Assembly: GCA_016196755.1 (NCBI GenBank) | Contig: JACPXC010000025.1 | Coordinates: 1-64,000 of the forward strand | DNA length: 64,000 nt | Direction: 5' to 3' | DNA from: Elusimicrobiota bacterium | GTDB taxonomy: Bacteria; Elusimicrobiota; Elusimicrobia; UBA1565 | Shown here: piece by piece, positions 43,667 to 56,085 of the stretch | Layout of the letters: every line of letters begins with the position of its first letter | Numbering within the stretch: position 1 is the stretch's first letter | Notes under the pieces: model-generated | Told to the model about the DNA's origin: nothing | The model's database searches: none | Seen by the model: only the letters and a program-made list of their open reading frames with translations | Program-made: the position numbers and the translations under genes

Positions 43667-43822
43667 ATGGCCCTATTACCCCTCCTCCGCTCCGAAATCC
43701 TCCGCCTCCGCGACCCCAAAAAAGCCGCCGGCATGGCCGCCTACATGAAGTCCAGCCTCAGCCTCTTGACCGAAAAATTACTACATGTTATACTTTCACC
43801 ATCCAGTGAAAATAGATACTAA
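43667..43822 (+). pseudogene. Truncated AlkD-like DNA alkylation repair gene
   Basis: A short frame of 51 codons whose first 28 residues include RDPKKAAGMAAYMKS, the characteristic N-terminal helix of AlkD-type DNA glycosylases. After about 43757 the likeness stops and the sequence becomes AT-rich promoter DNA of the AbiE-like pair. The rest of alkD is not found in the window. Marks the left edge of the inserted island. Confidence 0.55.
43766..43794 (+). promoter_or_regulatory. Promoter TTGACC-17-TATACT of the AbiE-like operon
   Basis: -35 TTGACC at 43766-43771 and -10 TATACT at 43789-43794, spacer 17. It lies across an in-frame ATG at 43785, which therefore cannot be the start; GTG 43806 is the first usable one. 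Confidence 0.75.
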
Positions 43823-43829
43823 AGTGAAA
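43794..43829 (+). promoter_or_regulatory. Probable autoregulatory operator (TTTCAC-N6-GTGAAA plus extra half-site)
   Basis: Inverted repeat TTTCAC (43794-43799) and GTGAAA (43806-43811), with another GTGAAA at 43824-43829. It covers the end of the -10 and the transcript start. AbiEi antitoxins are known to repress their own promoters through inverted repeats, so this is the likely site. Confidence 0.55.
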
Positions 43830-44909
43830 TTTGCTACGGGCAGAAAAAAACCCCTTATCGAACGGGCGAATTCGCAGCTCCAGACTCTATTCCAGTCATT
43901 GGGGCTCTCAGCGGTTCAAATGCCCAGGCGCATTTCGAAAAAGTATTTCTGGGATCGTGCTTATTACAGCAGCTTAAAGGGCCTGTCATTCGAGTTGGGA
44001 CTCTGCGCTAGGCCGACGTCGGAGCCTCGCCGCATCTACGAATTGATGGGGCAGCTTCAACTTCTCGCAGATGAGGAGGAGAAGAGAGCCCACCCGCTTT
44101 TTTTCGCCCCTTATATCGGAGAGCGCTCGGCGCAGCTCTGCCGCCAGGCCGGGATAGGTTATTTCGATGAGATGGGAAACTGTTGGATCAGCTATAAGAC
44201 CATTCTGATTTCTAGATCCGTCGATGTGAAGCCGACCGCTCCGCGTCGACAGAGCCGGCAGTTGTTCGCGCCCAAGTCCACGAGAGTCGTCCGCGCCCTG
44301 TTATCCGACCCAGCCAAGGGATGGCATCAAAGCGAACTCGCCAAAGAGGTGGGAATCAGTCTGGGTTTGGTCAATCGGGTCGTGCAGCGCCTCTTGGGGG
44401 AGGCGTATATCAAGATGGCGGAGAACCGCATCCATCTGAAAGACCCGAAAGCCCTCCTCAATGAGTGGGTGAAAGCCGTCGCCTTGCAGGATACTCCCGC
44501 CACCGAGTATTATTCGCCCGAGCCGCTTCAACAGCTCGAGCAGCGCATGGATGAGCTCAGCAAGAAAGAGGGATTCCAATATGCCTTGACGCTGTTCGCG
44601 GGAGCCCGTTACCGGGCACCATTCGTTCGGATCAATAGGCTCCATGCCTATGTCCAGGGGGACGTCGAATCCATCACCCGAGAACTGGGACTGAAGCCGG
44701 TTTCCTCGGGCGGGAACGTCTTGCTTATCCCGACTCCCGATGAGGGCGTTTTCTTCAAGATGTCGCGCGTCCAGGACCGGAACATCGTTTCCGATGTGCA
44801 GTTGTATGTGGATTTGAAGAACGCGCACGGCCGAGGCGAAGAGCAGGCCGAAGCCGTCGCGCAGCGCTGCCTGCGGCCGATCATGGGTGACGGAGCCGCC
44901 GCGCAGTGA
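43806..44909 (+). CDS. AbiEi-like antitoxin / winged-helix transcriptional regulator
   Basis: About 367 residues. The middle contains a winged helix (TRVVRALLSDPAKGWHQSELAKEVGISLGLVNRVVQRLLGEAYI), as in AbiEi-family antitoxins of type IV systems; the C-terminal half resembles the AbiEi C-terminal domain in length. The partner gene overlaps it by GTGA and encodes a nucleotidyltransferase, the usual AbiEii arrangement. The start is moved to GTG 43806 because an upstream ATG (43785) lies within the promoter. GC content is visibly lower than in the neighbours, suggesting horizontal origin. Confidence 0.75.
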   Translation: MKIDTKVKFATGRKKPLIERANSQLQTLFQSLGLSAVQMPRRISKKYFWDRAYYSSLKGLSFELGLCARPTSEPRRIYELMGQLQLLADEEEKRAHPLFFAPYIGERSAQLCRQAGIGYFDEMGNCWISYKTILISRSVDVKPTAPRRQSRQLFAPKSTRVVRALLSDPAKGWHQSELAKEVGISLGLVNRVVQRLLGEAYIKMAENRIHLKDPKALLNEWVKAVALQDTPATEYYSPEPLQQLEQRMDELSKKEGFQYALTLFAGARYRAPFVRINRLHAYVQGDVESITRELGLKPVSSGGNVLLIPTPDEGVFFKMSRVQDRNIVSDVQLYVDLKNAHGRGEEQAEAVAQRCLRPIMGDGAAAQ

Positions 44910-45748
44910 ACAGAAACGAGTACCCCGCGGACGAGACTCAAGCCGCCATCATGGTCCTGGCCGAGCTGTTGACCTATCTTGGTCCCTATCGCAACGACAT
45001 CGTCGTCATCGGCGGCTGGGTCCCATTTTTTCTGACCCAGAACGTAGTGGTTGATGAGCCGCATGTCGGCTCGTTAGACGTGGATCTCGCCTTGAATATC
45101 GCCAGGATCGCGGATGCCGCCTACGCCCGCATCGAAGAGATACTTGACGAACGCGGCTTCAAGCATCGTCTGGACGCCAAGGGCAGCGTCATCCCGCACA
45201 GCTACGTCCGGCAGGTCAAAAATGCCGCCGGCCAGGAGTTCGACGTTCAGGTCGATTTTCTCGCGCCTGAATACGGCGGGACCGCGAGATCCAAGCGACA
45301 TCAACGGGTTCAGGGCCTTCTCGCGCATAAGGCGCGCGGCAGCGACCTGGTCTTCGAGAATTTTGAGGAGAGGGATATCGAGGCGGTGCTTCCCAATGGA
45401 GCCAAGCGCCTGGTCAAGGCCAAGATCGCCGACCCTCTATCCTGCGTGGTGATGAAGGCGATCGCCTTTCGAGAGAGGGCGCATGAGAAGGACGCCTACG
45501 ATCTATACATCGTCTGCAAATACTGCCCCGACGGCAAGGAGCGGATCGCGGAGGGGATGAGGCAGAACAAGGACAGCAAGCTCGTCCAAGAGGCGCTTGT
45601 GGTCTTGCGCAAGGAGTTTGCCGCCATGGACTCCTTGGGACCTGTTTCGGCGGCTGATTTCATGCAGGAAACCGACGCGACGGCCCGGGCCGTTCGTTGC
45701 AGAGATGTGCTCGAAACCATTCAGGCAGTCTTGGCTCTTGTTGAGTGA
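44906..45748 (+). CDS. AbiEii-like nucleotidyltransferase toxin
   Basis: 280 residues with a nucleotidyltransferase (MNT/DNA-pol-beta) fold: IVVIGGWVPFF followed by SLDVDLALN carrying the metal-binding D-x-D, then a third Asp in FDVQVDFLAPEY. KDAYDLYIVCKY near residue 190 is the K-x-x-D-x-x-D motif typical of AbiEii/MenT-type toxins. Type IV toxins of this class block growth by NMP-adding to tRNA or similar targets, with phage defence in some. GTGA overlap with the antitoxin gene. The assignment as a toxin depends on pairing as well as motif. Confidence 0.75.
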   Translation: MNRNEYPADETQAAIMVLAELLTYLGPYRNDIVVIGGWVPFFLTQNVVVDEPHVGSLDVDLALNIARIADAAYARIEEILDERGFKHRLDAKGSVIPHSYVRQVKNAAGQEFDVQVDFLAPEYGGTARSKRHQRVQGLLAHKARGSDLVFENFEERDIEAVLPNGAKRLVKAKIADPLSCVVMKAIAFRERAHEKDAYDLYIVCKYCPDGKERIAEGMRQNKDSKLVQEALVVLRKEFAAMDSLGPVSAADFMQETDATARAVRCRDVLETIQAVLALVE

Positions 45749-45769: not shown

Positions 45770-46987
45770 CTACAGCTTCGGGAAGGAGGAGGCGATCTCG
45801 CGCATCCCGGCCGCCGAGACGCCGGCCTCGCGGGCGAACTCCTCCCAGCGGCCGACGGCGGCCCGGACTTCGTCGATGACGGTCGCGGTCCGGGGCCGTG
45901 CCACCCCCACAGTCTCGGCCAGGCGGAGGATGTGGGCCCGCCCGGGGTTCTTACCCTCGCCGGCGAGGGTCATCGTGTGCTCCGCGCCGGGGCCGGCGGC
46001 GTAGACGAGGTCATAGGCGGGGGACAGGTTCCATTCGCTGCGGGCATCGTCAAAGACGAAGGCGAAGTTCTTCACATGGTCGTCGCGGTTGTGCGCGAGG
46101 ACGTTGAACGTCATCCGGCGCAGGACCCGGATGACATCCCGGTGGTCACGCGTCAGCGCCGACGCGGCCTTGAAGAGGTCGGCGTAGTCGGCGGAGGGAA
46201 TCCGGAAATTCGACTGAATGAGGTTCCCGAAGGTGTGGACGTGGAAGCGCCTGTTCCCGTCCCGGTCGAAGCGCTTGACGCCGAAAAATCGGCCCGCGGC
46301 GGTCTCGAAGAGGCGGGTCGGCGGCATGTCGATGCCGGCCGCGGCGGCCATGAGGGCGTAGGCGTACTCGACGGGCCCGGCGTCGGCCAGGTCCGCCCTG
46401 GCGGGGAACTTGACCAGCCAGGCCTCAAAGCCCTCGGGCAGGTCGTCGACCCCCGAGAGGATGCGCTCACCCTGGACGCCGACCAGGACCTTGGGGCGCG
46501 CCCCTCCGGGGGAGCCGCCCGCCCGCAATAGCTGCGGCAGGACCTCGCCGGCGTCTCCGGCCAAGAGCTGCTGCGACCGGCGGGCGAGCTCCGCCAGGTC
46601 GAGGGCGGCCGCGTCCCCCGCGCCGCTTTCGGCCGGCGGGTGGTAGGTCAGGGCCCCCATCGTTCGCGTGCCCAGCCAGGCGAGGCGCTCGAGGGGACCG
46701 ATCTCGGCGGGTCTCTTTCCGAGTGAACGGAAATGCCGGTCCATCAGCAAGAGGCCCCAGCCGTCGGGGAGCGAGTCGTCGAAGAGGCCCGGCAGCGGAC
46801 CGAACTCGAGGTCCCGGTGCTCGAAGAGCGCCTCTTCGAATGGGAGGCGCCGGGGAGAGAGGTTCCAGCCGGAGGCAAGGAACCCCCGGTCGTACTCAAA
46901 GTAGACGCGCCCGCGCTCCGAAGCCAGGGTCCCGACGGCGAGCGACTCGGCGGGGGTGCGAGTGAAGCGGACGGAGAGTTTCCTCAA
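45770..46987 (-). CDS. hipA: HipA-family serine/threonine kinase toxin
   Basis: 405 residues. N-terminal HipA_N-type domain (GLFDDSLPDGWGLLLMDRHF), an ATP-binding region with SPGGARPKVLVG and AWLVKFPA (catalytic Lys), FFGVKRFDRDGNRRFHVHTF, the catalytic loop VLAHNRDDHVKNFAF and the metal loop LSPAYDLV. HipA kinases phosphorylate aminoacyl-tRNA synthetases and induce dormancy. Convergent with the AbiE-like pair (21 bases between stops) and overlaps its antitoxin gene by ATGA. All kinase residues look intact, so it is probably active. Confidence 0.9.
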   Translation of the reverse strand: MRKLSVRFTRTPAESLAVGTLASERGRVYFEYDRGFLASGWNLSPRRLPFEEALFEHRDLEFGPLPGLFDDSLPDGWGLLLMDRHFRSLGKRPAEIGPLERLAWLGTRTMGALTYHPPAESGAGDAAALDLAELARRSQQLLAGDAGEVLPQLLRAGGSPGGARPKVLVGVQGERILSGVDDLPEGFEAWLVKFPARADLADAGPVEYAYALMAAAAGIDMPPTRLFETAAGRFFGVKRFDRDGNRRFHVHTFGNLIQSNFRIPSADYADLFKAASALTRDHRDVIRVLRRMTFNVLAHNRDDHVKNFAFVFDDARSEWNLSPAYDLVYAAGPGAEHTMTLAGEGKNPGRAHILRLAETVGVARPRTATVIDEVRAAVGRWEEFAREAGVSAAGMREIASSFPKL

Positions 46988-47504: not shown

Positions 47505-48538
47505 GGCTTCAGGCGTAGGCGCAGCTCCGCCACGGCCTTGGCGTCCACCGAGCCCACTCGGATGGCGTCCAAGGCCGCTTTGGCTCCCGCCATGTCGCCG
47601 GCTTTGATGAGCGCCCTGGCGAGCTCCATAGCCGCCGCCCCCGCGTCCTCCTCGATGCCGTTGGTCTTGTCGCCGTTGGCCGCGACTTCTTCGATAGCCT
47701 GCTCATGGAACGCCAGGACCCCTTTCCAGACCTCGGCGGCCTTGCCGGGCTGTTTCGAGTGTTCCAAAGCCCTGGCCAGTCCCTTCTGAGTCTCCAAAGA
47801 AGCGTCCGGGAGAGCCGCCGCTCTCTGATAGGCCGCTAGACTCTCCGTCGGCTTGCCCAGCTCTCTCAAGAGCTCGCCCTGGGCCATCACCAGATCCTCG
47901 CCCTCGGGAAGCTTGGCCAACTCCGCCAATGCCTCCTCCCTTCGTCCCGCCTTGCGATAGGTGTCGACCACCTCGGACACCAGGTGTCCGTGATGAGGAT
48001 CGAGCGTCAAAGCCTTGTTGAGGTACTTGAGCGACTCGCTCAAGTCCTTGTCGAAGGATTTGTGGAGGAAGGCCAGCTCTCTCCACGCCTCGCGGTCGGT
48101 GGGGTCGATGCTCACCCGCTGTTCGAGCTTCGCCGAGGCTTCCGCGACCTTGCCCTTGCCCAGCAGCTTGTGGATGCTCTGGAAGTCCGGCAGGGCTTTT
48201 CTTTTGGCGGTGGCCTGGTCGATGCTCTTGGAGAGCTTGTGGGCCCCGTCCAAGGCTGACTTGGCCGCCTTCAAGGCCGCGTCGAAGTCCTTCTCGGTGT
48301 GGGGGCCCTTCCCGGCCGCACCGATCCTCAGACCCAGCGAAGGGACCGTCGTCGATAAGGCCGGCGCGGCCACGGCGGGAGGTCTCGCGGGCCTGAGCGA
48401 CATGATGGGCGCCGTCGAAACGGGTTGGTCTTCCGTCAACGCCGCCGAGAGCGGAGGAAGCGTCGTCTCTTCCATCGGAGGGGGTTCTTTCTTGGAACAG
48501 GCGGTGAGGAGGAGAAGGAGGGGGAGTACTTTCCTCAT
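47501..48538 (-). CDS. TPR lipoprotein of the carbamoyltransferase/GT2-GH2 operon
   Basis: 345 residues. Lipoprotein signal MRKVLPLLLLLTAC with Cys14 in the lipobox LTAC, then a Pro/Thr-rich linker and a TPR array from about residue 120 (REAWRELAFLHKSFDKDLSESLKYLNKAL; KAGRREEALAELAKLPEG; KPTESLAAYQRAAAL). An earlier in-frame start exists, but only ATG 48538 gives the lipobox and an ATGA overlap with the SGNH gene. In polysaccharide export systems (AlgK, PelB, BcsC) TPR proteins of this kind scaffold the periplasmic machinery; it is the only such component in this operon. Confidence 0.8.
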   Translation of the reverse strand: MRKVLPLLLLLTACSKKEPPPMEETTLPPLSAALTEDQPVSTAPIMSLRPARPPAVAAPALSTTVPSLGLRIGAAGKGPHTEKDFDAALKAAKSALDGAHKLSKSIDQATAKRKALPDFQSIHKLLGKGKVAEASAKLEQRVSIDPTDREAWRELAFLHKSFDKDLSESLKYLNKALTLDPHHGHLVSEVVDTYRKAGRREEALAELAKLPEGEDLVMAQGELLRELGKPTESLAAYQRAAALPDASLETQKGLARALEHSKQPGKAAEVWKGVLAFHEQAIEEVAANGDKTNGIEEDAGAAAMELARALIKAGDMAGAKAALDAIRVGSVDAKAVAELRLRLKP

Positions 48539-49596
48539 AGCTTGTCCTTGAGCAACCCGTAGAGCGCCTCGCCGGCCACGCGATGGCCTTTCTCGGTCCA
48601 ATGCCCGTCCACCGGGTAGATGTAGTGGCCGGTCAGCTCGAACTTGGGACGGATGTCGAGGAAGCGCACCCCCGACTTCTTGGCCGTTTCCCAGGAGTAG
48701 TCATAACCCCCGCGGTTGGGGCCGCCGTTCTCGGTGAAGGATGTCGCATAGAGGTTCGGGGCTTCTTTCTTCATCTCGGCCAGGAGGTAGGGGAACAATC
48801 TCTCCGCATAGGCGTTGTCGACCTTCTGCTCGAAGGAGGCCGTCGGGCTGAGCTTCACGTAGTAGAAGTCCTCGAAGTACTTGTAGAAGAACGAGTGCTT
48901 TCTCATCCACGCGAACGCCCCGCCGGCCTTGGCCTGCCCGGAGACCGTTCTACACCCGCCCTCGCAGTCGATGTACTCGAAGTACTCCAGGTCGAACTTG
49001 CCGGCCGGGATGTTGGTCGGTCTGAGCTTCCCGTCTTCGAGGAAGAACGCCGGCTTGCTGTAGAGGCGATGGCGGTTCTTGACCGTCACCACGTCCGGGA
49101 AGTCGTTGTCCGAGAACATGTAGAGGACGAGATCGGGTTTGAGTCTGGGGACCAGTCTCTTTACGAGGAGATACACCTGGTCCGCCCCGTAGCCCCTCAC
49201 CCCGGCGTTGTAGACCTTTACCGGCTTGCCGGCTTCAGCGAAGGAGCGCTCAAGGACCGCCGGGTAGGTCTCGTTGTCGTCGACCTCCTGGCCTACCGTC
49301 GTCGAGTCGCCCACGATGAGGATCTTCTTGGCGTTAGCGGGGGGCTGTCCACCCGTGCTCCTAAAGCCCTGCTCGTCGAAGGAGACCTCGCCCTTGTAGC
49401 CGTGCTGGCGGCTGTGGAAGGTGCCCTTGGAGCCCGGCACGTGGAACCAGCCGAGCTCCGCGTCGTAGGTCCAGAACTTGCTCTCCGCGCTCTCGGCGTC
49501 CTGGGCCGGGAACATCTTGATGGTGGCCTCGGCCAATGCCAAGGGTAGGATGATCGTTAAGAGACCACGGAGGAACCGTCCTACCAGCTGTGCCAT
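48535..49596 (-). CDS. SGNH/GDSL-family hydrolase or acyltransferase, membrane anchored
   Basis: 353 residues. An N-terminal hydrophobic helix (LLTIILPLALAEATI) anchors the protein outside the cytoplasm. SGNH blocks: nucleophile Ser in IVGDSTTVG, Gly in YNAGVRGYGADQ, Asn in MFSDNDFPD, and Asp-x-x-His as PVDGHWTEKGH. Proteins of this form next to carbamoyltransferase and DUF5989 genes are common in other genomes and are thought to act on surface glycans or lipids; whether as esterase or acetyltransferase cannot be told. It overlaps both neighbours. Confidence 0.85.
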   Translation of the reverse strand: MAQLVGRFLRGLLTIILPLALAEATIKMFPAQDAESAESKFWTYDAELGWFHVPGSKGTFHSRQHGYKGEVSFDEQGFRSTGGQPPANAKKILIVGDSTTVGQEVDDNETYPAVLERSFAEAGKPVKVYNAGVRGYGADQVYLLVKRLVPRLKPDLVLYMFSDNDFPDVVTVKNRHRLYSKPAFFLEDGKLRPTNIPAGKFDLEYFEYIDCEGGCRTVSGQAKAGGAFAWMRKHSFFYKYFEDFYYVKLSPTASFEQKVDNAYAERLFPYLLAEMKKEAPNLYATSFTENGGPNRGGYDYSWETAKKSGVRFLDIRPKFELTGHYIYPVDGHWTEKGHRVAGEALYGLLKDKL

Positions 49597-50012
49597 TCTT
49601 CCTCTTCTTGGACGGCGGATGTTTTGGGAGGGGGACCGCCTTTTCTATAGAACTGCGCTATGACGATGCCCGTCACCGCTCCCGTGGCCACCGCGTTGAC
49701 CGCGGCCAGGATGAAGGGGAAGTCCAGCGGCACCCACCAGACCGCGCGGATGGAGAGCCCGATAGGCACGAACTTCATGAGCCCCATCAGCGCCCCGAAG
49801 CGCGCTCCTTCCACCACCCAATGACGCCCCTTGTAGCCCATCGGGAAGATGATGGCCATCAGCCCCCCGTAGATCAGGTGATGGAGGAAGATCAGCTCCT
49901 TGATCGGCTCGGGCCGGGCGAAATCCACCACGTGCATCTGCCAGGTCAGGGAGTAGAAGGCCGTGTCCAAGAAGAACGAGACGGCCGCGGCGGCTAAAGC
50001 GGCGGATATCAT
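49581..50012 (-). CDS. Small polytopic membrane protein
   Basis: 143 residues with four predicted helices (SAALAAAAVSFFLDTAFYSL; ELIFLHHLIYGGLMAIIFPM; GALMGLMKFVPIGLSI; FPFILAAVNAVATGAVTGIVIAQF) and an acidic tail EEEEWHSW. Two His in helix 2 (LHHLIYGG) and a Trp-rich loop are notable. No family recognised. Tied into the operon by ATGA overlap with the GT2-GH2 gene and a 16-base overlap with the SGNH gene, so it should work with them. Confidence 0.7.
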   Translation of the reverse strand: MISAALAAAAVSFFLDTAFYSLTWQMHVVDFARPEPIKELIFLHHLIYGGLMAIIFPMGYKGRHWVVEGARFGALMGLMKFVPIGLSIRAVWWVPLDFPFILAAVNAVATGAVTGIVIAQFYRKGGPPPKTSAVQEEEEWHSW

Positions 50013-53000
50013 GAGCGGGGCGCCACGATCACGGGTTCCTCCAGCGCGATGTCCTTGTCGAAGATGGAGCGGCGCAGGTCGCGCCTAAAGGTAAGGATGT
50101 ACGGCCCCGGGGCCAGGTCCTTGAGCGGCAGGAGCTGTTCCTGGTACGGCAGGTCCTCGGGGATGTCCAAGGTCCGCACCGTGCTTCCGGTGGGCGCGTG
50201 GGAGAGCTCCACGCGCCGCGAGCGCAGGCCGGCGAGGATGAGGAGCGCCTCCGGGTTTATCTCGGTCAGCATGAAGCGCAATCTTACCTCGCCGTCGGCA
50301 AGCGCCGCCGGTGCGAAGGGTCCCCAGTCCGAGCCGGCTACCGAAGCCTGGAGGCCGGTCAGCGAATAATTCTTGGAGATCGGGGGGGCGGCGAATCTCG
50401 CCCACGAAACGGCGGCCAGGCCGCGGTGGGTCGTGTAGTCGAGGCGGATGAGGGCTTCTTTCGGCAGGCCTTTGAGCGTCTTCTTGCCATGGGGGGCGAG
50501 GTCGCCCAAGTCGGTCGGCGCCGAGCCCCAGCCCGTCATGGTGACCGCGCGCAGCCAATAGGGCCGGCGGTTCGTGAAGGTGGTGCTCCCGTCCTTCCGG
50601 GTCAGCTCCACGTCCGAATAGATGTCCCTCAAGCGCTCGGCTTCCAGCCCGGCCTCGCCGTATCTATCCCACACCCCGCGCTTGTCGTCCGGGGTGTCGG
50701 CCGAGAACGGGTCGGTGACGCGCTTGAACTGCGGCTGGGCCCAGTTGTCGTGCGACTCGAAGAACACCCCGCCCACCGCCCCGCCGGCCAAGAGCATCCG
50801 CCACTGGTCGACGAAGCGCGCCGTCCGGTACCAGGAAGGAACCACCTCGGCCGCGCCCAGGAAGCCCCCGAACTCGCCGGCCAGGAAGGGGACTCGACGA
50901 GAGAGCGCGGTGGGAAGCCCCTTCTCCCAGTAGTGGCGCCCCGTGTCGAGCATGTTCACCGAGCGCACGGCGGTCTGGAAGTCCACGTCCAGGCGGTGCG
51001 AGGCGTAGGAGGCCGGCACCTCGCCGCCGTCGGCGCTTCCCAGGCCTCGGGTCAGCTCCTTGAGCGGCTCCTTCCATTTGGCGTCGGGCAGGGCCAGGTC
51101 CAGCTCGTTGCCCAGGTTGTGGATGAGGGCGTAGGCGAAGCCGTGGTTCTGTTTCTTGAGCTTGTGGAAGCGGCGTCGCAGCCCGTTGCGGTCGCCGCGG
51201 TCGGAGAGGTCCATGTCGTCCCAGGTCGAGGCCTCGGCCTGGTCGATGACCAGCAGTTGGGCCGCGGCGGCTTCTTTGCGCAGGGCGTCGTTGGGGGAGT
51301 GGTAGAGCCTGATGGCGTTGGCGCCCAGGTCTTTGATGAGGCGGTAGCCTTGTCCTAGGTCCACGCCTAGCGTCGGATGCGAGAACGAAGGCACCATCCC
51401 TTTGACGAGGAAGGGTTCGCCATTCACAAGCAGGTTTCTTCCGGAGACTTCTTTGAAGTCGGTGGAGAACTTCTCCACGCTCTCACAGCGGAAGCCCTTC
51501 CCGGTGATGCGCGCCCGCAGTTCCTTGGACTCCCAGCCCAGAGGGAACCGCAGGTGCGTGGAGACGATGCGGTAGTCTTCTAGTAGCGTCGTGGACGACA
51601 CCAGGGCCCCGCCCAGCCAGAACTCCACGGCCAGCTCTCGTTCGGGCTTGGTCTGGATGACCTCGGCCGTCAGGATGACCCGGACGTCGTCTTTGCCCTC
51701 TCGGCGCTTCTCGGTCCAGGTGTAGAACTCGAGAGGCGACGAGCGCAGGTCGAAGAACGGCCGTTCCCTCAGCGGCCCGCCCTTGCCGCAGGTCTGGTAG
51801 TAGGCGTAGTCATGCGCCAACAGCGGCGGCATCATGAGGAGGAGCGCAACCCAGACCACGCTGGCCGGGCGCACCGGGAAGCGCAGGGCCGCCGGTTTTC
51901 CCGTAAACGCCGCCGCGCCCCCGTCCAAAGCCGCCGTCCCCGAGCGCCGCACCGCCTTCCAGAGCTTCATCCCGCTCAGCCAGTCCGAGAGCCCCAAGAG
52001 GCCCCCGTAGATGTCGAGGAACAAGATGACCGGGAAGCTCACCGCCCCGGCCAGGAGGTGCCAGCCGCTCATGACATGCAGGCGCAGGGCCCCGGCCCCC
52101 AGCATGGCCAGCGGCGCCCCGATCCCCGCCGCGCAGAGCGCCGCGAAGGTCTTCTCGTGGGGGAACGGGATCATATAGAGGAAGGCCACGTCCCCCGACC
52201 AGCGCATCGCCAAGGCGGCCGCCAGCGCCGCCACCGGCGCGCTCCAGAGCCAGCCCACTACGAAGTCGAACCCGCGCGCGCTCCAGGGCGCCCCGCTCTG
52301 GCGGGAAGACAGCAGGCCCGAGACCAGGGCCCCGGCCAGGGCGATGGCCAGCTGGCGCGAGGGCGGCATCTGGAGGAAGAAGTACGAACCGAGGAGAAGG
52401 TGCAGGGCCGCTATGGCCAGCGTGGCCAGATAGAACTGCCCGTGGACGATGAACTGGGCCTTCACGCGGCGTCCGGTCTTCTCGGAGGCTAGGATGGGCC
52501 TCAAGTGCGCGAAGAAGGCCCGGGTATGGCCGTGGCTCCAGCGCCGTCGCCTGGCCACGAAGCTGTGCAGGTCCGGCGAGAGGTCCTCGCTCGAGCCGTA
52601 GAACGGGTTGTAGGCCACCTTCTCGCCGTCCTGCAGGAGCCGGTAGAACAGGTCGGTGTCCTCGGTCAGGGTATGGCCGAACGGATAGCGCTCGAGGACC
52701 TCGCGGCGGAACAGCGCCGTCGTGCCGGTGAACTGGGCCGGCACCCCGAGGCGCCGATAGACGAAGTTCAGGACCTGGTTGCCCACATGGTGCTGGAGCG
52801 AGTCCCAGAGCCGGTAGATCCCCGCCGCCGAGAGCGGCCAGCGCCGGGCTTGAACGGCGGCGGCCCCGGTCTCGTTGAGGATCGCCAACGACGAGCGCAG
52901 CCAGCTGTGGTGGGCCAGGTGGTCGGCGTCGAGGAAAGCTACGAAGGCTTCTTTGACGTGGGGCAGTTCGGAGTTGAGCTTGTCGGCCTTCGAGGTCAGG

Positions 53001-53383
53001 CCGGTGAAGACCAGCTCGAGCTTCCGGCCGGAGGCCGAAGAGAGCGTCCGCCGTCCGCCGACTTCCGGGCCGGCGTCCGGGAAGGCGGCCAGCAGGTGGG
53101 GGACCGACGTGTCCTCTCCGTCTTTGATGAGGATGCGCGCCGACACCGGCCCCGTATGGTCCTGGTCGAGCAGGGAGAGCGCGCAGCCGACCAGGCCCGG
53201 GCCCTCGTTGAGCGCCGGCACCAGGGCGGCGACGGGTTCCGCTCCGCCGCCCTCGAAGCGGCGGCGCTCCTTGCCGACCAAGAACAGGAACGCGGTTGCC
53301 GTGGCCGCGTAGACCAAGGCGAAGCCCATGAGGTAGGCGCTGCAGGCGTAGGCCGCGGCGAGGAAGAGGTGGGTCAGCGTCAA
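50009..53383 (-). CDS. GT2 synthase fused to a periplasmic GH2-like glycosidase domain
   Basis: 1124 residues. Part 1 (1-about 350): membrane helix, then a family-2 glycosyltransferase with ALVPALNE, the D-x-D-like FLDADH, acceptor-site TLTEDTD and RRRRW in place of QxxRW, as in cellulose-synthase-like enzymes. Part 2 (about 300-560): several membrane helices ending VVWVALLLMMPPLLA. Part 3 (about 570-1124): a beta-sandwich, then a GH2-type TIM barrel (NGEPFLVKGMVPSF; GANAIRLYHSP) with both expected catalytic acids: Glu760 in HNLGNEL and Glu837 in LAGEFGG. The chain thus joins polymer synthesis to a periplasmic glycosidase or transglycosylase. The frame is continuous with no sign of a missed stop. 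ATGA overlap downstream. Confidence 0.88.
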   Translation of the reverse strand: MTLTHLFLAAAYACSAYLMGFALVYAATATAFLFLVGKERRRFEGGGAEPVAALVPALNEGPGLVGCALSLLDQDHTGPVSARILIKDGEDTSVPHLLAAFPDAGPEVGGRRTLSSASGRKLELVFTGLTSKADKLNSELPHVKEAFVAFLDADHLAHHSWLRSSLAILNETGAAAVQARRWPLSAAGIYRLWDSLQHHVGNQVLNFVYRRLGVPAQFTGTTALFRREVLERYPFGHTLTEDTDLFYRLLQDGEKVAYNPFYGSSEDLSPDLHSFVARRRRWSHGHTRAFFAHLRPILASEKTGRRVKAQFIVHGQFYLATLAIAALHLLLGSYFFLQMPPSRQLAIALAGALVSGLLSSRQSGAPWSARGFDFVVGWLWSAPVAALAAALAMRWSGDVAFLYMIPFPHEKTFAALCAAGIGAPLAMLGAGALRLHVMSGWHLLAGAVSFPVILFLDIYGGLLGLSDWLSGMKLWKAVRRSGTAALDGGAAAFTGKPAALRFPVRPASVVWVALLLMMPPLLAHDYAYYQTCGKGGPLRERPFFDLRSSPLEFYTWTEKRREGKDDVRVILTAEVIQTKPERELAVEFWLGGALVSSTTLLEDYRIVSTHLRFPLGWESKELRARITGKGFRCESVEKFSTDFKEVSGRNLLVNGEPFLVKGMVPSFSHPTLGVDLGQGYRLIKDLGANAIRLYHSPNDALRKEAAAAQLLVIDQAEASTWDDMDLSDRGDRNGLRRRFHKLKKQNHGFAYALIHNLGNELDLALPDAKWKEPLKELTRGLGSADGGEVPASYASHRLDVDFQTAVRSVNMLDTGRHYWEKGLPTALSRRVPFLAGEFGGFLGAAEVVPSWYRTARFVDQWRMLLAGGAVGGVFFESHDNWAQPQFKRVTDPFSADTPDDKRGVWDRYGEAGLEAERLRDIYSDVELTRKDGSTTFTNRRPYWLRAVTMTGWGSAPTDLGDLAPHGKKTLKGLPKEALIRLDYTTHRGLAAVSWARFAAPPISKNYSLTGLQASVAGSDWGPFAPAALADGEVRLRFMLTEINPEALLILAGLRSRRVELSHAPTGSTVRTLDIPEDLPYQEQLLPLKDLAPGPYILTFRRDLRRSIFDKDIALEEPVIVAPRS

Positions 53384-53393
53384 GGCGCCGCGC

Positions 53394-53597
53394 TCAGAAC
53401 AGGGAGTACACGAAGGGCGCCAGCGGCGAGACCAGGTTGATGAAGTAGAGCACGATGCCGGCCATATAGAGGGCGATCATGACCGGGATGAGGCCGCCCA
53501 TGCGCCGCGAGCGCAGGTCCTTGGCCACTCCGAAGGCCGCCCCGCCTACGAGTTGGAAACCGGCGTACCACGGCCTGCCTTTGGCGGAACTGGTCAT
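53394..53597 (-). CDS. DUF5989-like small membrane protein
   Basis: 67 residues: a basic amphipathic front and one membrane helix ending MIALYMAGIVLYFINLVSPLAPFVYSLF. The closing SPLAPFVYSLF is the hallmark of DUF5989, a family that accompanies carbamoyltransferase and SGNH genes in many genomes. ATGA overlap with the carbamoyltransferase gene and 10 bases before the GT2-GH2 gene. Role unknown; likely a small subunit or anchor of a membrane complex. Confidence 0.78.
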   Translation of the reverse strand: MTSSAKGRPWYAGFQLVGGAAFGVAKDLRSRRMGGLIPVMIALYMAGIVLYFINLVSPLAPFVYSLF

Positions 53598-55417
53598 GTC
53601 TTCCTCACCACGAGCCCGTTGTAGACCAGCAGGTCCATGGCCGTGCGGGCGTACATGGCCAGGGCCTCGAGCGGCGTGCCCACGATGGGGTAGCCGCTCT
53701 CGTTAAAAGAGGTGTTGAGGACGGCGGAGAGGCCGGTGCGGCGCCCCACGGCCTTGAGCAACGAGTGGTAGCGCTCGTTGTCCTCGCGCGAGCAGACCTG
53801 GGGGCGCGTCGTGCCGTCGACGTGCATGGCGGCGCGGACCGAGGCCTGCGCTTCGGGGCGCACCGGGGCGCTTAGCTGCATCCAGCGATGGGGGGTCTGG
53901 ACGGCTTTGGTGAGGGAGAGGACCTTGCCCGCCTCCTCCTCGGCGATGGAGAGCGCGTAGGGGCGGTAGGGTTCGCGCAGTTTGACCTGGGTGCTGAGGC
54001 GGCGGGCCGTCTCGAGCCGGTCAGGACGGATGAGGATCGAACGGTTGCCCAGCGCGCGCGGGCCGCTCTCGGCCGCGCCCTGGCACCAGCCCACGATCTT
54101 GCCGTCGGCGATGGCCGCGGCGGCCTCCTCGATGACGGCCCCGAAGTCGGCCGGGCGCTCCGAGGTCCAGGTCTCGCCGGGGCGGGGCTGCCAGCCGCGG
54201 ACGGCGAAGCGCCGGTAGCGGCCGGGCTTGGCATGGGGCAGGAGGGCCGCGTCGCGGGTCTCGTCGAAGGCCGCGCCCGTGTAGGGGCCGTAGCCGACCT
54301 TGCCCGGGGTCCGCCCGCCCTGCAGGGCGTCGCCGTAGAGCGCCGCGCCCACCGAGGCCCCGCCGTCGCCGGGGTCGGGGGGGACGTAGAGGCGCTCGAT
54401 CCAAGGCTGTTTGAGCAGGCTGGCGTTAGCCACGCAGTTGAGCGCCCCGCCGCCGGCCAGGCAGAGATTGGCAGAGCCGGCCGACTCATGCGCGCGCTTG
54501 GCCAGGCCCACCATCAGCTCCTCGAAGACCAGCTGGATGCTGGCCGCCACGTCGGCGTAGAAATTCATGTCGGCCGGGGCCTCCGAAGGACCATCTGCCA
54601 GGCAGTCGAAGGGCAGGCGGTCCTTGAAGCTCCGGGGTTTGCCGCCGAGCGCGGCCAGGAAGCGCGGCGTGAAGGGGTCGGCGTAGAAGTTGCGGAAGTT
54701 GAAGTAGTCCTGGTCGACGCGGATGAGGCCTTCCGGGTCGAGCCGGACCATCTTGCGGACCTCGTCGGCGAAGACCGGCCGGCCGAAGGCGGCCAGCGCC
54801 ATCGTGCTGCACTCGCCGTCCATCGGAACGAAGCCCAGGAAGGCCGTGAAGGTGGAGTAGACCAAGCCCAAGGAGTCCGGGAACTCGGCCCGGGCCAGGG
54901 GCTTGAGCGCCGGCCGGCCGCCCTCGTAGGTGGCATGGGTGATGGCGGCCGTCTCCCACTCGCCCACCGAGTCGACGCTGAGCACCGCCGCCTCGGAGAA
55001 AGGCGAGCCCAAAAAAGCCTGGGCGGCATGGGTCTGGTGGTGGCGCAGGGTCCGCACCAGGTCGGGGTGGACGTCGAGGCGCTTGGAGATATCGTTGCGC
55101 ACCCAGAGCTTCTTGCCCAGCCAGACCTTGAGGCCGGCCACGAACTCGCGGCGCGTGTCCGGAAAGCCGGCCAGGCTCGAGGCCAGGACGCGCGTGAACG
55201 TGGCGGCGGGGTCCTCGTGGTAGACGATAGCGTCGAGCTCGGAGGCCGCCACGCCGGCCTTCTCCAGGCACCAGCGCACCGAGAGCGCGGGGAAGTTCGG
55301 GTCGTGCTTCTGGCGCGAGAAGCGCTCCTCGGCCGCCGCGGCCACCAGGACACCGTCGACGACCAACGCCGCCGAGGCGTCGTGGAAGCCGTAGGAGAGG
55401 CCGAGGGTCCGCCTCAC
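53594..55417 (-). CDS. Carbamoyltransferase (NodU/HypF-type)
   Basis: 607 residues. Transfers a carbamoyl group from carbamoyl phosphate via carbamoyl-adenylate to a hydroxyl of a sugar or other metabolite. The N-terminal Kae1-like domain has LGLSYGFHDASAALV, RHHQTHAAQAF (metal-binding His pair), SVDSVGEW and LCLAGGGALNCVAN. The C-terminal YrdC-like catalytic part has CQGAAESGPRALGNRSIL, REPYRPYALSI and NTSFNESGYPIVGTP. The start is GTG 55417 (GTGA overlap with the ferritin-like gene). In this operon the acceptor is probably the glycan made by the GT2-GH2 protein or its lipid precursor; this is inference. Confidence 0.92.
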   Translation of the reverse strand: MRRTLGLSYGFHDASAALVVDGVLVAAAAEERFSRQKHDPNFPALSVRWCLEKAGVAASELDAIVYHEDPAATFTRVLASSLAGFPDTRREFVAGLKVWLGKKLWVRNDISKRLDVHPDLVRTLRHHQTHAAQAFLGSPFSEAAVLSVDSVGEWETAAITHATYEGGRPALKPLARAEFPDSLGLVYSTFTAFLGFVPMDGECSTMALAAFGRPVFADEVRKMVRLDPEGLIRVDQDYFNFRNFYADPFTPRFLAALGGKPRSFKDRLPFDCLADGPSEAPADMNFYADVAASIQLVFEELMVGLAKRAHESAGSANLCLAGGGALNCVANASLLKQPWIERLYVPPDPGDGGASVGAALYGDALQGGRTPGKVGYGPYTGAAFDETRDAALLPHAKPGRYRRFAVRGWQPRPGETWTSERPADFGAVIEEAAAAIADGKIVGWCQGAAESGPRALGNRSILIRPDRLETARRLSTQVKLREPYRPYALSIAEEEAGKVLSLTKAVQTPHRWMQLSAPVRPEAQASVRAAMHVDGTTRPQVCSREDNERYHSLLKAVGRRTGLSAVLNTSFNESGYPIVGTPLEALAMYARTAMDLLVYNGLVVRKT

Positions 55418-56085
55418 GACCACCCCGCGGACGAGGCGGTGCGGCGCCGCCGGGCGATTCCGGCTCCCAGGGGGGCCAGGACCCAGTAGACGGCCGAGAG
55501 GAAGCCGGTCGAGGCCAGGTCGGTGACGTTGCGGCCGGTCCTCAGCCAGGCTTCCCAGCGCCGGCGCCAGCGGATGAGGCCCGACTCCCGCTGGAACTGT
55601 TCCTCGCTGATGCCGAGCTCGTTGATGAACTCCCTGGCGCCGTGCACGTGGCCGACTTCGTCTGCCAGGATACTGTCCAGCGTCTTTATGAGCCGGGGGT
55701 CGGTGGCGGCGTCGCGGATGTGGGTGAAGCGCGTGGCCGCGGCGTCCTCGCCCACGTAGCAGTAGATGAAGAACTTCCACATCTCGGCCTTGTCCCAGTA
55801 GAGCGCCTCGCGCTCGTACTTGGCCGGAACCAGGGGAGAGGCGCTGTCCTCGTTGTAGAGCCCCTTGAACAGCTCGGCGTGATGGGTCTCTTCCAAGACC
55901 TGGCCCAGCAGGTCGGCGCGCTGGGCGGGGTCGTCGACCTTGTCGGCGGCGTAGAGCAGCTGCCAGGCGCTGTCGGCCTCGGTGGCCGAGAACAGGCGCA
56001 GGGAGTCTAGGTAGCGGCTCTTGGAGAGGCCCCAGGCGAGGCGGACGAGGAGCTTGACGCGCAAAGCTTCCAGCCAGGTGGGCAT
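55414..56085 (-). CDS. Ferritin-like diiron-fold protein
   Basis: 223 residues, mainly helical. Two E-x-x-H motifs on separate helices (VLEETHHAELF and ILADEVGHVHGA), with other acidic residues between them (TEADSAWQLLY, EREALYWDKAEMW), fit a ferritin-like four-helix diiron site. The C terminus has a hydrophobic stretch (TGFLSAVYWVLAPLGAGIA) that may bind the membrane. Possible roles are an oxygenase or hydroxylase acting on the glycan or lipid substrate of this operon. First gene of the operon; an extended -10 (TGGTACACT) lies 10 bases upstream of its ATG. Confidence 0.75.
   Translation of the reverse strand: MPTWLEALRVKLLVRLAWGLSKSRYLDSLRLFSATEADSAWQLLYAADKVDDPAQRADLLGQVLEETHHAELFKGLYNEDSASPLVPAKYEREALYWDKAEMWKFFIYCYVGEDAAATRFTHIRDAATDPRLIKTLDSILADEVGHVHGAREFINELGISEEQFQRESGLIRWRRRWEAWLRTGRNVTDLASTGFLSAVYWVLAPLGAGIARRRRTASSAGWS

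Follow-up and report, generated by a model that had tools for sequence, protein, structure and literature searches.

A 64,000-nucleotide stretch of DNA from an Elusimicrobiota bacterium (the window, below) carries on its minus strand, at 50009-53383, a gene that joins a family 2 glycosyltransferase (GT2) synthase, a membrane block, and a predicted clan GH-A glycosidase in one protein of 1124 amino acids. This GT2-glycosidase fusion is genuine and no artefact, because a full-length homologue is encoded on a contig from Parcubacteria. The protein is probably a self-contained membrane poly- or oligosaccharide synthase equipped with its own outside-facing processing glycosidase. Coordinates given below without a locus name are window positions and, for the features of the gene and of its operon-like run, lie on the minus strand.

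The gene is a single frame of 1124 codons and a stop, with a TTG start and no internal stop. Measured between stops, the open reading frame spans 1155 codons, and an open run of this length has a chance probability of about 7e-12 at the local base composition. The GC content of third codon positions (GC3), at 0.93 for the GT2 half and 0.89 for the glycosidase half, resembles that of the neighbouring genes. The original prediction, made from the letters alone and without naming the strand, had described an uninterrupted frame coding for a synthase and a glycosidase in one protein, with the motifs LDADH, TEDTD, RRRRW, GNE, and GEFGG and with E760 and E837 lying 77 residues apart. The motifs are located at residues 151-155 (LDADH), 240-244 (TEDTD), 278-282 (RRRRW), 758-760 (GNE), and 836-840 (GEFGG). 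This description has held throughout: no stop separates the halves, GC3 is even across them, each motif is in its place, and the domain pair is kept in a second phylum.

A search for the same domain pair elsewhere, conducted as an alignment-based scan of genome contigs, contained among the matches listed the full-length homologue (L037), a 1211-residue protein from Parcubacteria group bacterium Athens0714_26. It aligns with residues 4-1004 of the fusion at 34% identity (E 2e-174) and keeps the DxD, ED, and RRRRW motifs, E760, E837, D879, and W881, together with the two cysteines of the C-terminal half. The two proteins are most alike in the GT2 core (43% identity) and the barrel (39%) and less so in the membrane block (28%) and the linker (22%); since the GT2 core and the barrel are best conserved, both enzyme parts appear to be under constraint. 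Thus, judging from a homologue in an unrelated phylum, the pairing of synthase and glycosidase is real and selectively maintained. An assembly chimera, or two adjoining genes misread as one, would agree with the absence of a copy from two other genomes of the genus, yet the independent homologue of another phylum, likewise encoded as a single frame, and the codon signature uniform across both halves make such an origin wholly improbable, and the chimera was rejected on the strength of the homologue.

Domain architecture and presumed catalytic residues

The N-terminal half matches four Pfam GT2 models above their cut-offs, among them PF13641 (6e-15, 56 bits against a cut-off of 27) and PF13632 (9e-13, 49 bits against 27). 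Together with PF00535, these define a GT2 core at residues 46-300 (52484-53248) that is predicted to be cytosolic. It contains the DxD motif as LDADH (52919-52933), the TED motif as TEDTD (52652-52666), and RRRRW (52538-52552) in place of Q(Q/R)xRW, a substitution found at the QxxRW site of both fusion homologues. The best solved sequence match of this half is BcsA, and the mycofactocin glycosyltransferase MftF is matched below the threshold.

The GT2 core is followed by a membrane block at residues 301-470 (51974-52483), in which the hydropathy of both homologues and an alignment with E. coli BcsA point to four membrane helices and one segment corresponding to the IF3 interface helix. A last membrane helix is predicted at residues 504-522 (51818-51874), after a linker rich in lysine and arginine. 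In total, plain hydropathy gives six hydrophobic segments after the GT2 core. The segment from about residue 372 (374-380) aligns with the FWSEIYETVLAWYI stretch of E. coli BcsA, which we take to be the IF3 interface helix. If this segment does not cross the membrane, four crossings leave the positively charged linker (466-503) inside, and the last helix consequently leads outside. Moreover, the sole cysteines of the C-terminal half, Cys532 and Cys633, are a candidate disulfide pair (span 51485-51790) kept in the homologue, and the presence of only these two conserved cysteines fits a disulfide outside the cytosol. The glycosidase half is therefore most likely extracytoplasmic, as the original prediction supposed, in view of the hydropathy, the BcsA-like topology with its IF3 alignment, the positive linker, and the conserved cysteine pair.

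For the C-terminal half (residues 525-1124), an AlphaFold model was built from an alignment of eight rows, to which the loci from the genome searches did not contribute (mean predicted local distance difference test score, pLDDT, 68; predicted template-modelling score, pTM, 0.68; model numbering offset by 524), while a single-sequence model of the full protein, with a pLDDT of 37, was not used. The model consists of an immunoglobulin-like (Ig-like) β-sandwich at residues 552-653 (51425-51730; model strands 28-129), a (β/α)8 barrel at about residues 654-922 (50618-51424), and further β-sandwiches, of mixed confidence, at residues 925-1101 (50081-50611). The Ig-like domain occupies the position of GH2 domain II and is covered by the GH2 structure alignments. 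Foldseek matches the model to GH2 at E 8e-21, and the best solved fold matches are GH2 glucuronidases (Z up to 27, about 350 residues aligned) and GH157 (Z 23). The TIM barrel that had been expected from the sequence is thus present in the model.

The sequence signal for a particular family is fainter. No Pfam family reaches its cut-off in the C-terminal half; the GH2 barrel model PF02836 scores 11-13 bits against 21, and there is no match to GH17, although phmmer matches a GH2 β-galacturonidase at 2e-5. An N-terminal jelly-roll of the GH2 type was not found: only about 30 residues separate the last membrane helix from the Ig-like domain, and PF02837 is not matched. The profile of the wider group of relatives matches GH157, GH158, GH2, and GH72 structures, and the GH72 Pfam model is matched by 11 of the 18 wider relatives but by no part of the fusion protein itself. 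Hence, the proposed GH2-like barrel is supported by the model and by structure comparison but not by sequence alone, and the label GH2-type describes the architecture yet is too narrow for a domain that lacks the jelly-roll and stands about as close to GH157, GH158, and GH72. By model and profile, the C-terminal half is best described as a clan GH-A glycosidase domain placed among these four families.

The presumed catalytic residues are found where clan GH-A enzymes have them. In the model, E760 of GNE (51104-51112), the presumed acid/base, comes directly after barrel strand 4 (model residues 228-235, Glu 236), and E837 of GEFGG (50864-50878), the presumed nucleophile, lies within strand 7 (309-315, Glu 313), so that the glutamate pair proposed originally is consistent with the predicted fold. 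The FFESHDNW motif at strand 8 (50741-50764) contributes D879 and W881, and in an alignment of 18 sequences R692, N759, E760, E837, D879, and W881 are all invariant. In a profile alignment, E837 shares its column with E224 of LaGH157, which was replaced by alanine in a crystal complex with laminaritriose. In BuGH158, N136, E137, and E220 are essential (PMC7157763), and the shared clan layout suggests their equivalence in motif to N759, E760, and E837.

Proposed function and alternative readings

In the proposed mechanism, the cytosolic GT2 domain would extend a β-linked sugar chain from a nucleotide sugar, and the chain would leave through the BcsA-like membrane block and, on the outer side, meet the clan GH-A domain tethered to it. 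There, E837 would attack the chain with E760 as the acid/base in a retaining mechanism, and the chain would be cut or, perhaps more likely, re-joined for length control, branching, or cyclisation. The best single guess for the polymer, taken from the relatives, is β-1,3-glucan, because three of the four closest glycosidase groups (GH157, GH158, and GH72) act on this glucan. Several points weigh against such a synthase with its own processing enzyme. Six crossings would put the glycosidase inside, unless one of the hydrophobic segments is the IF3 interface helix; RRRRW in place of Q(Q/R)xRW makes the processivity of the GT2 domain uncertain; and confidence in the model is moderate, with the mean pLDDT quoted above and values of about 65-71 around E760 and E837. 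In addition, at least two fusions are present among the matches listed, and one of them is on an 8.3-kb contig of a metagenome-assembled genome, for which mis-binning is possible; more fusions may exist beyond the matches listed.

It is quite possible that the glycosidase domain is a plain hydrolase that trims or releases chains in the manner of BcsZ-like editing and has no transferase role, given that plain GH2, GH157, and GH158 hydrolases are among its closest solved relatives (PMC7157763, PMC10229575) and that many secreted relatives in the phylum resemble free glycosidases. However, the closest functional precedent for a glycosidase fused to a GT2 synthase, GH17-GT2, transglycosylates (PMC10237404), and to tether a pure hydrolase at the exit would appear wasteful. 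Rather unlikely, in our estimate, is a non-processive GT2 that makes a short oligosaccharide or glycolipid, with the glycosidase domain transferring sugar to another acceptor. RRRRW in both homologues, the MftF match, and the carbamoyltransferase and SGNH neighbours, which suggest glycan decoration, speak for it, whereas the DxD, TED, and RW motifs and the BcsA-like membrane block match processive synthases. A catalytically dead domain acting as a carbohydrate-binding guide could explain why the sequence is far from every curated glycosidase family and why the fusion has lost the HD and NEEWW motifs found after strand 8 in relatives, but both glutamates and their clan GH-A partners R692, N759, and W881 show no variation, either between the two phyla or among the relatives, and the membrane block is less conserved than the barrel, which renders such a guide very improbable. 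The synthase with its own processing glycosidase is thus preferred. A bolder version of it, which we put forward tentatively and with considerable doubt, is a new class of one-protein synthase-transglycosylases that would have spread horizontally between the Elusimicrobiota and the Patescibacteria. Fused behind the GT2 pore, a glycosidase of a new clan GH-A family would cyclise or branch the chain to give a glycan, possibly carbamoylated, unlike those of known synthase systems.

Distribution and genomic neighbourhood

The GT2-glycosidase fusion is rare. A scan of genomes with the single fusion protein as the query gave no match, and no second copy was found in 341 searched Elusimicrobiota genomes, nor does either of the other genomes from its genus have one. 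Around the Parcubacteria homologue, there were no further copies among 244 genomes of its order, 176 of its class, or 380 from Patescibacteria as a whole, these samples being partly overlapping. A search of 285 genomes from the phylum of an Omnitrophota contig (L039), carried out without a positive control, found no fusion; neither did viral contigs, and plasmids gave GT2-only or remote GH2 matches without a fusion. Two candidates were rejected, one (L003) being an ordinary three-domain GH2 protein and the other, from a related genome of the family (L004:442-2925), an 827-residue BcsA-like GT2-PilZ synthase without a glycosidase. Because the distribution is patchy, horizontal transfer is suggested.

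Free secreted relatives of the glycosidase half are abundant in Elusimicrobiota, are often clustered, and carry the motifs GNE, E(F/Y/W)G, and FEW.DEWW. At L010, L011, L028, L030, L031, L033, and L040 and at G023:C1:745930-752122, three to six such proteins, secreted and GH2/GH72/GH158-like, lie together; some clustered proteins of 650-720 residues have an extra N-terminal region, and the family has expanded. In another genome of the phylum, a match to the glycosidase group (G029:C7:125626-126099) lies within an open frame of 8368 codons.

The fusion gene belongs to a tightly packed minus-strand run. Upstream of it are a NodU-type carbamoyltransferase gene (53594-55447; PF02543 4e-56, PF16861 3e-54) and, overlapping the stop of the latter by ATGA, a gene for a 67-residue DUF5989-like membrane protein (53394-53597; PF19451 2.6e-5, just below the cut-off). 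The next gene, with an ATG that overlaps the last bases of the fusion gene, encodes a membrane protein of 143 residues (49581-50012); genes for an SGNH/GDSL hydrolase (48535-49596; PF13472 3.4e-11) and a TPR protein complete the run. In genomes of the family, carbamoyltransferases adjoin DUF5989 or SGNH genes without a GT2-glycosidase fusion, and for this reason the fusion appears to have been added to a pre-existing cassette. The carbamoyl and SGNH enzymes of this operon-like run may decorate the glycan product. Just upstream of the carbamoyltransferase gene and overlapping it, the window codes for a 223-residue protein (55414-56085) with no Pfam family beyond a sub-threshold DUF455 match. 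Further away, an AbiEi-like antitoxin (PF09952 4.5e-11) and a nucleotidyltransferase (PF12281) at 43785-45748 are likely an AbiE-type toxin-antitoxin pair, which is adjoined on the other strand by a HipA-family kinase gene (45770-46987; PF07804 2.9e-48).

Comparison with known systems

BcsZ belongs to family GH8. The fusion resembles BcsA in its GT2 core with DxD, TED, and RW motifs and in its membrane block, but lacks PilZ and has fewer N-terminal helices; unlike in the BcsA/BcsZ pair, the glycosidase is fused rather than encoded by a separate gene and is of another fold. With GH2 β-glucuronidases and β-galactosidases, it shares an Ig-like domain followed by a TIM barrel with glutamates at strands 4 and 7, whereas the N-terminal jelly-roll is missing, the Pfam GH2 cut-off is not reached, and the domain is tethered in the membrane to a GT2. 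The endo-β-1,3-glucanases of GH157 and GH158 (PMC10229575, PMC7157763) and the GH72 glucanosyltransferases are the best matches of the wider-group profile, with aligned catalytic positions, but they are free secreted enzymes, and the fusion barrel is remote from each of them. The glycosidase half may be the founding member of a new family of β-glucan-active enzymes.

A fused synthase-glycosidase is not without precedent, since GH17-GT2 fusions are known from pseudomonads. The "Orphan"/NdvB proteins of Pseudomonas and Azotobacter (Glt1, Glt3, and Glt7) consist of a periplasmic GH17 domain, a membrane region, and a cytosolic GT2 domain and are proposed to make and remodel β-1,3-glucan (PMC10237404; PMC11005184); their GH17 domains transglycosylate β-1,3-glucan, and a cyclic glucan has been proposed as the product (PMC10237404). 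The present fusion likewise combines GT2, membrane helices, and a clan GH-A glycosidase in one protein, but its glycosidase is C-terminal instead of N-terminal, is GH2/GH157/GH158-like, is accompanied by an Ig-like domain and trailing β-sandwiches, and occurs in Elusimicrobiota and Parcubacteria. No published account of a GT2-GH2 fusion was found in the open literature, which is weak evidence. Elusimicrobiota are poorly known, and the fusion hints at surface glycan synthesis in this phylum as well as in a reduced Parcubacterium; the protein is small enough to be expressed and tested. Taken together with GH17-GT2, it suggests that a GT2 synthase and a periplasmic glycosidase have been united in one chain on more than one occasion, each time with another glycosidase family and in the opposite domain order, and such repeated coupling points to a general advantage of processing the sugar chain where it leaves the pore.

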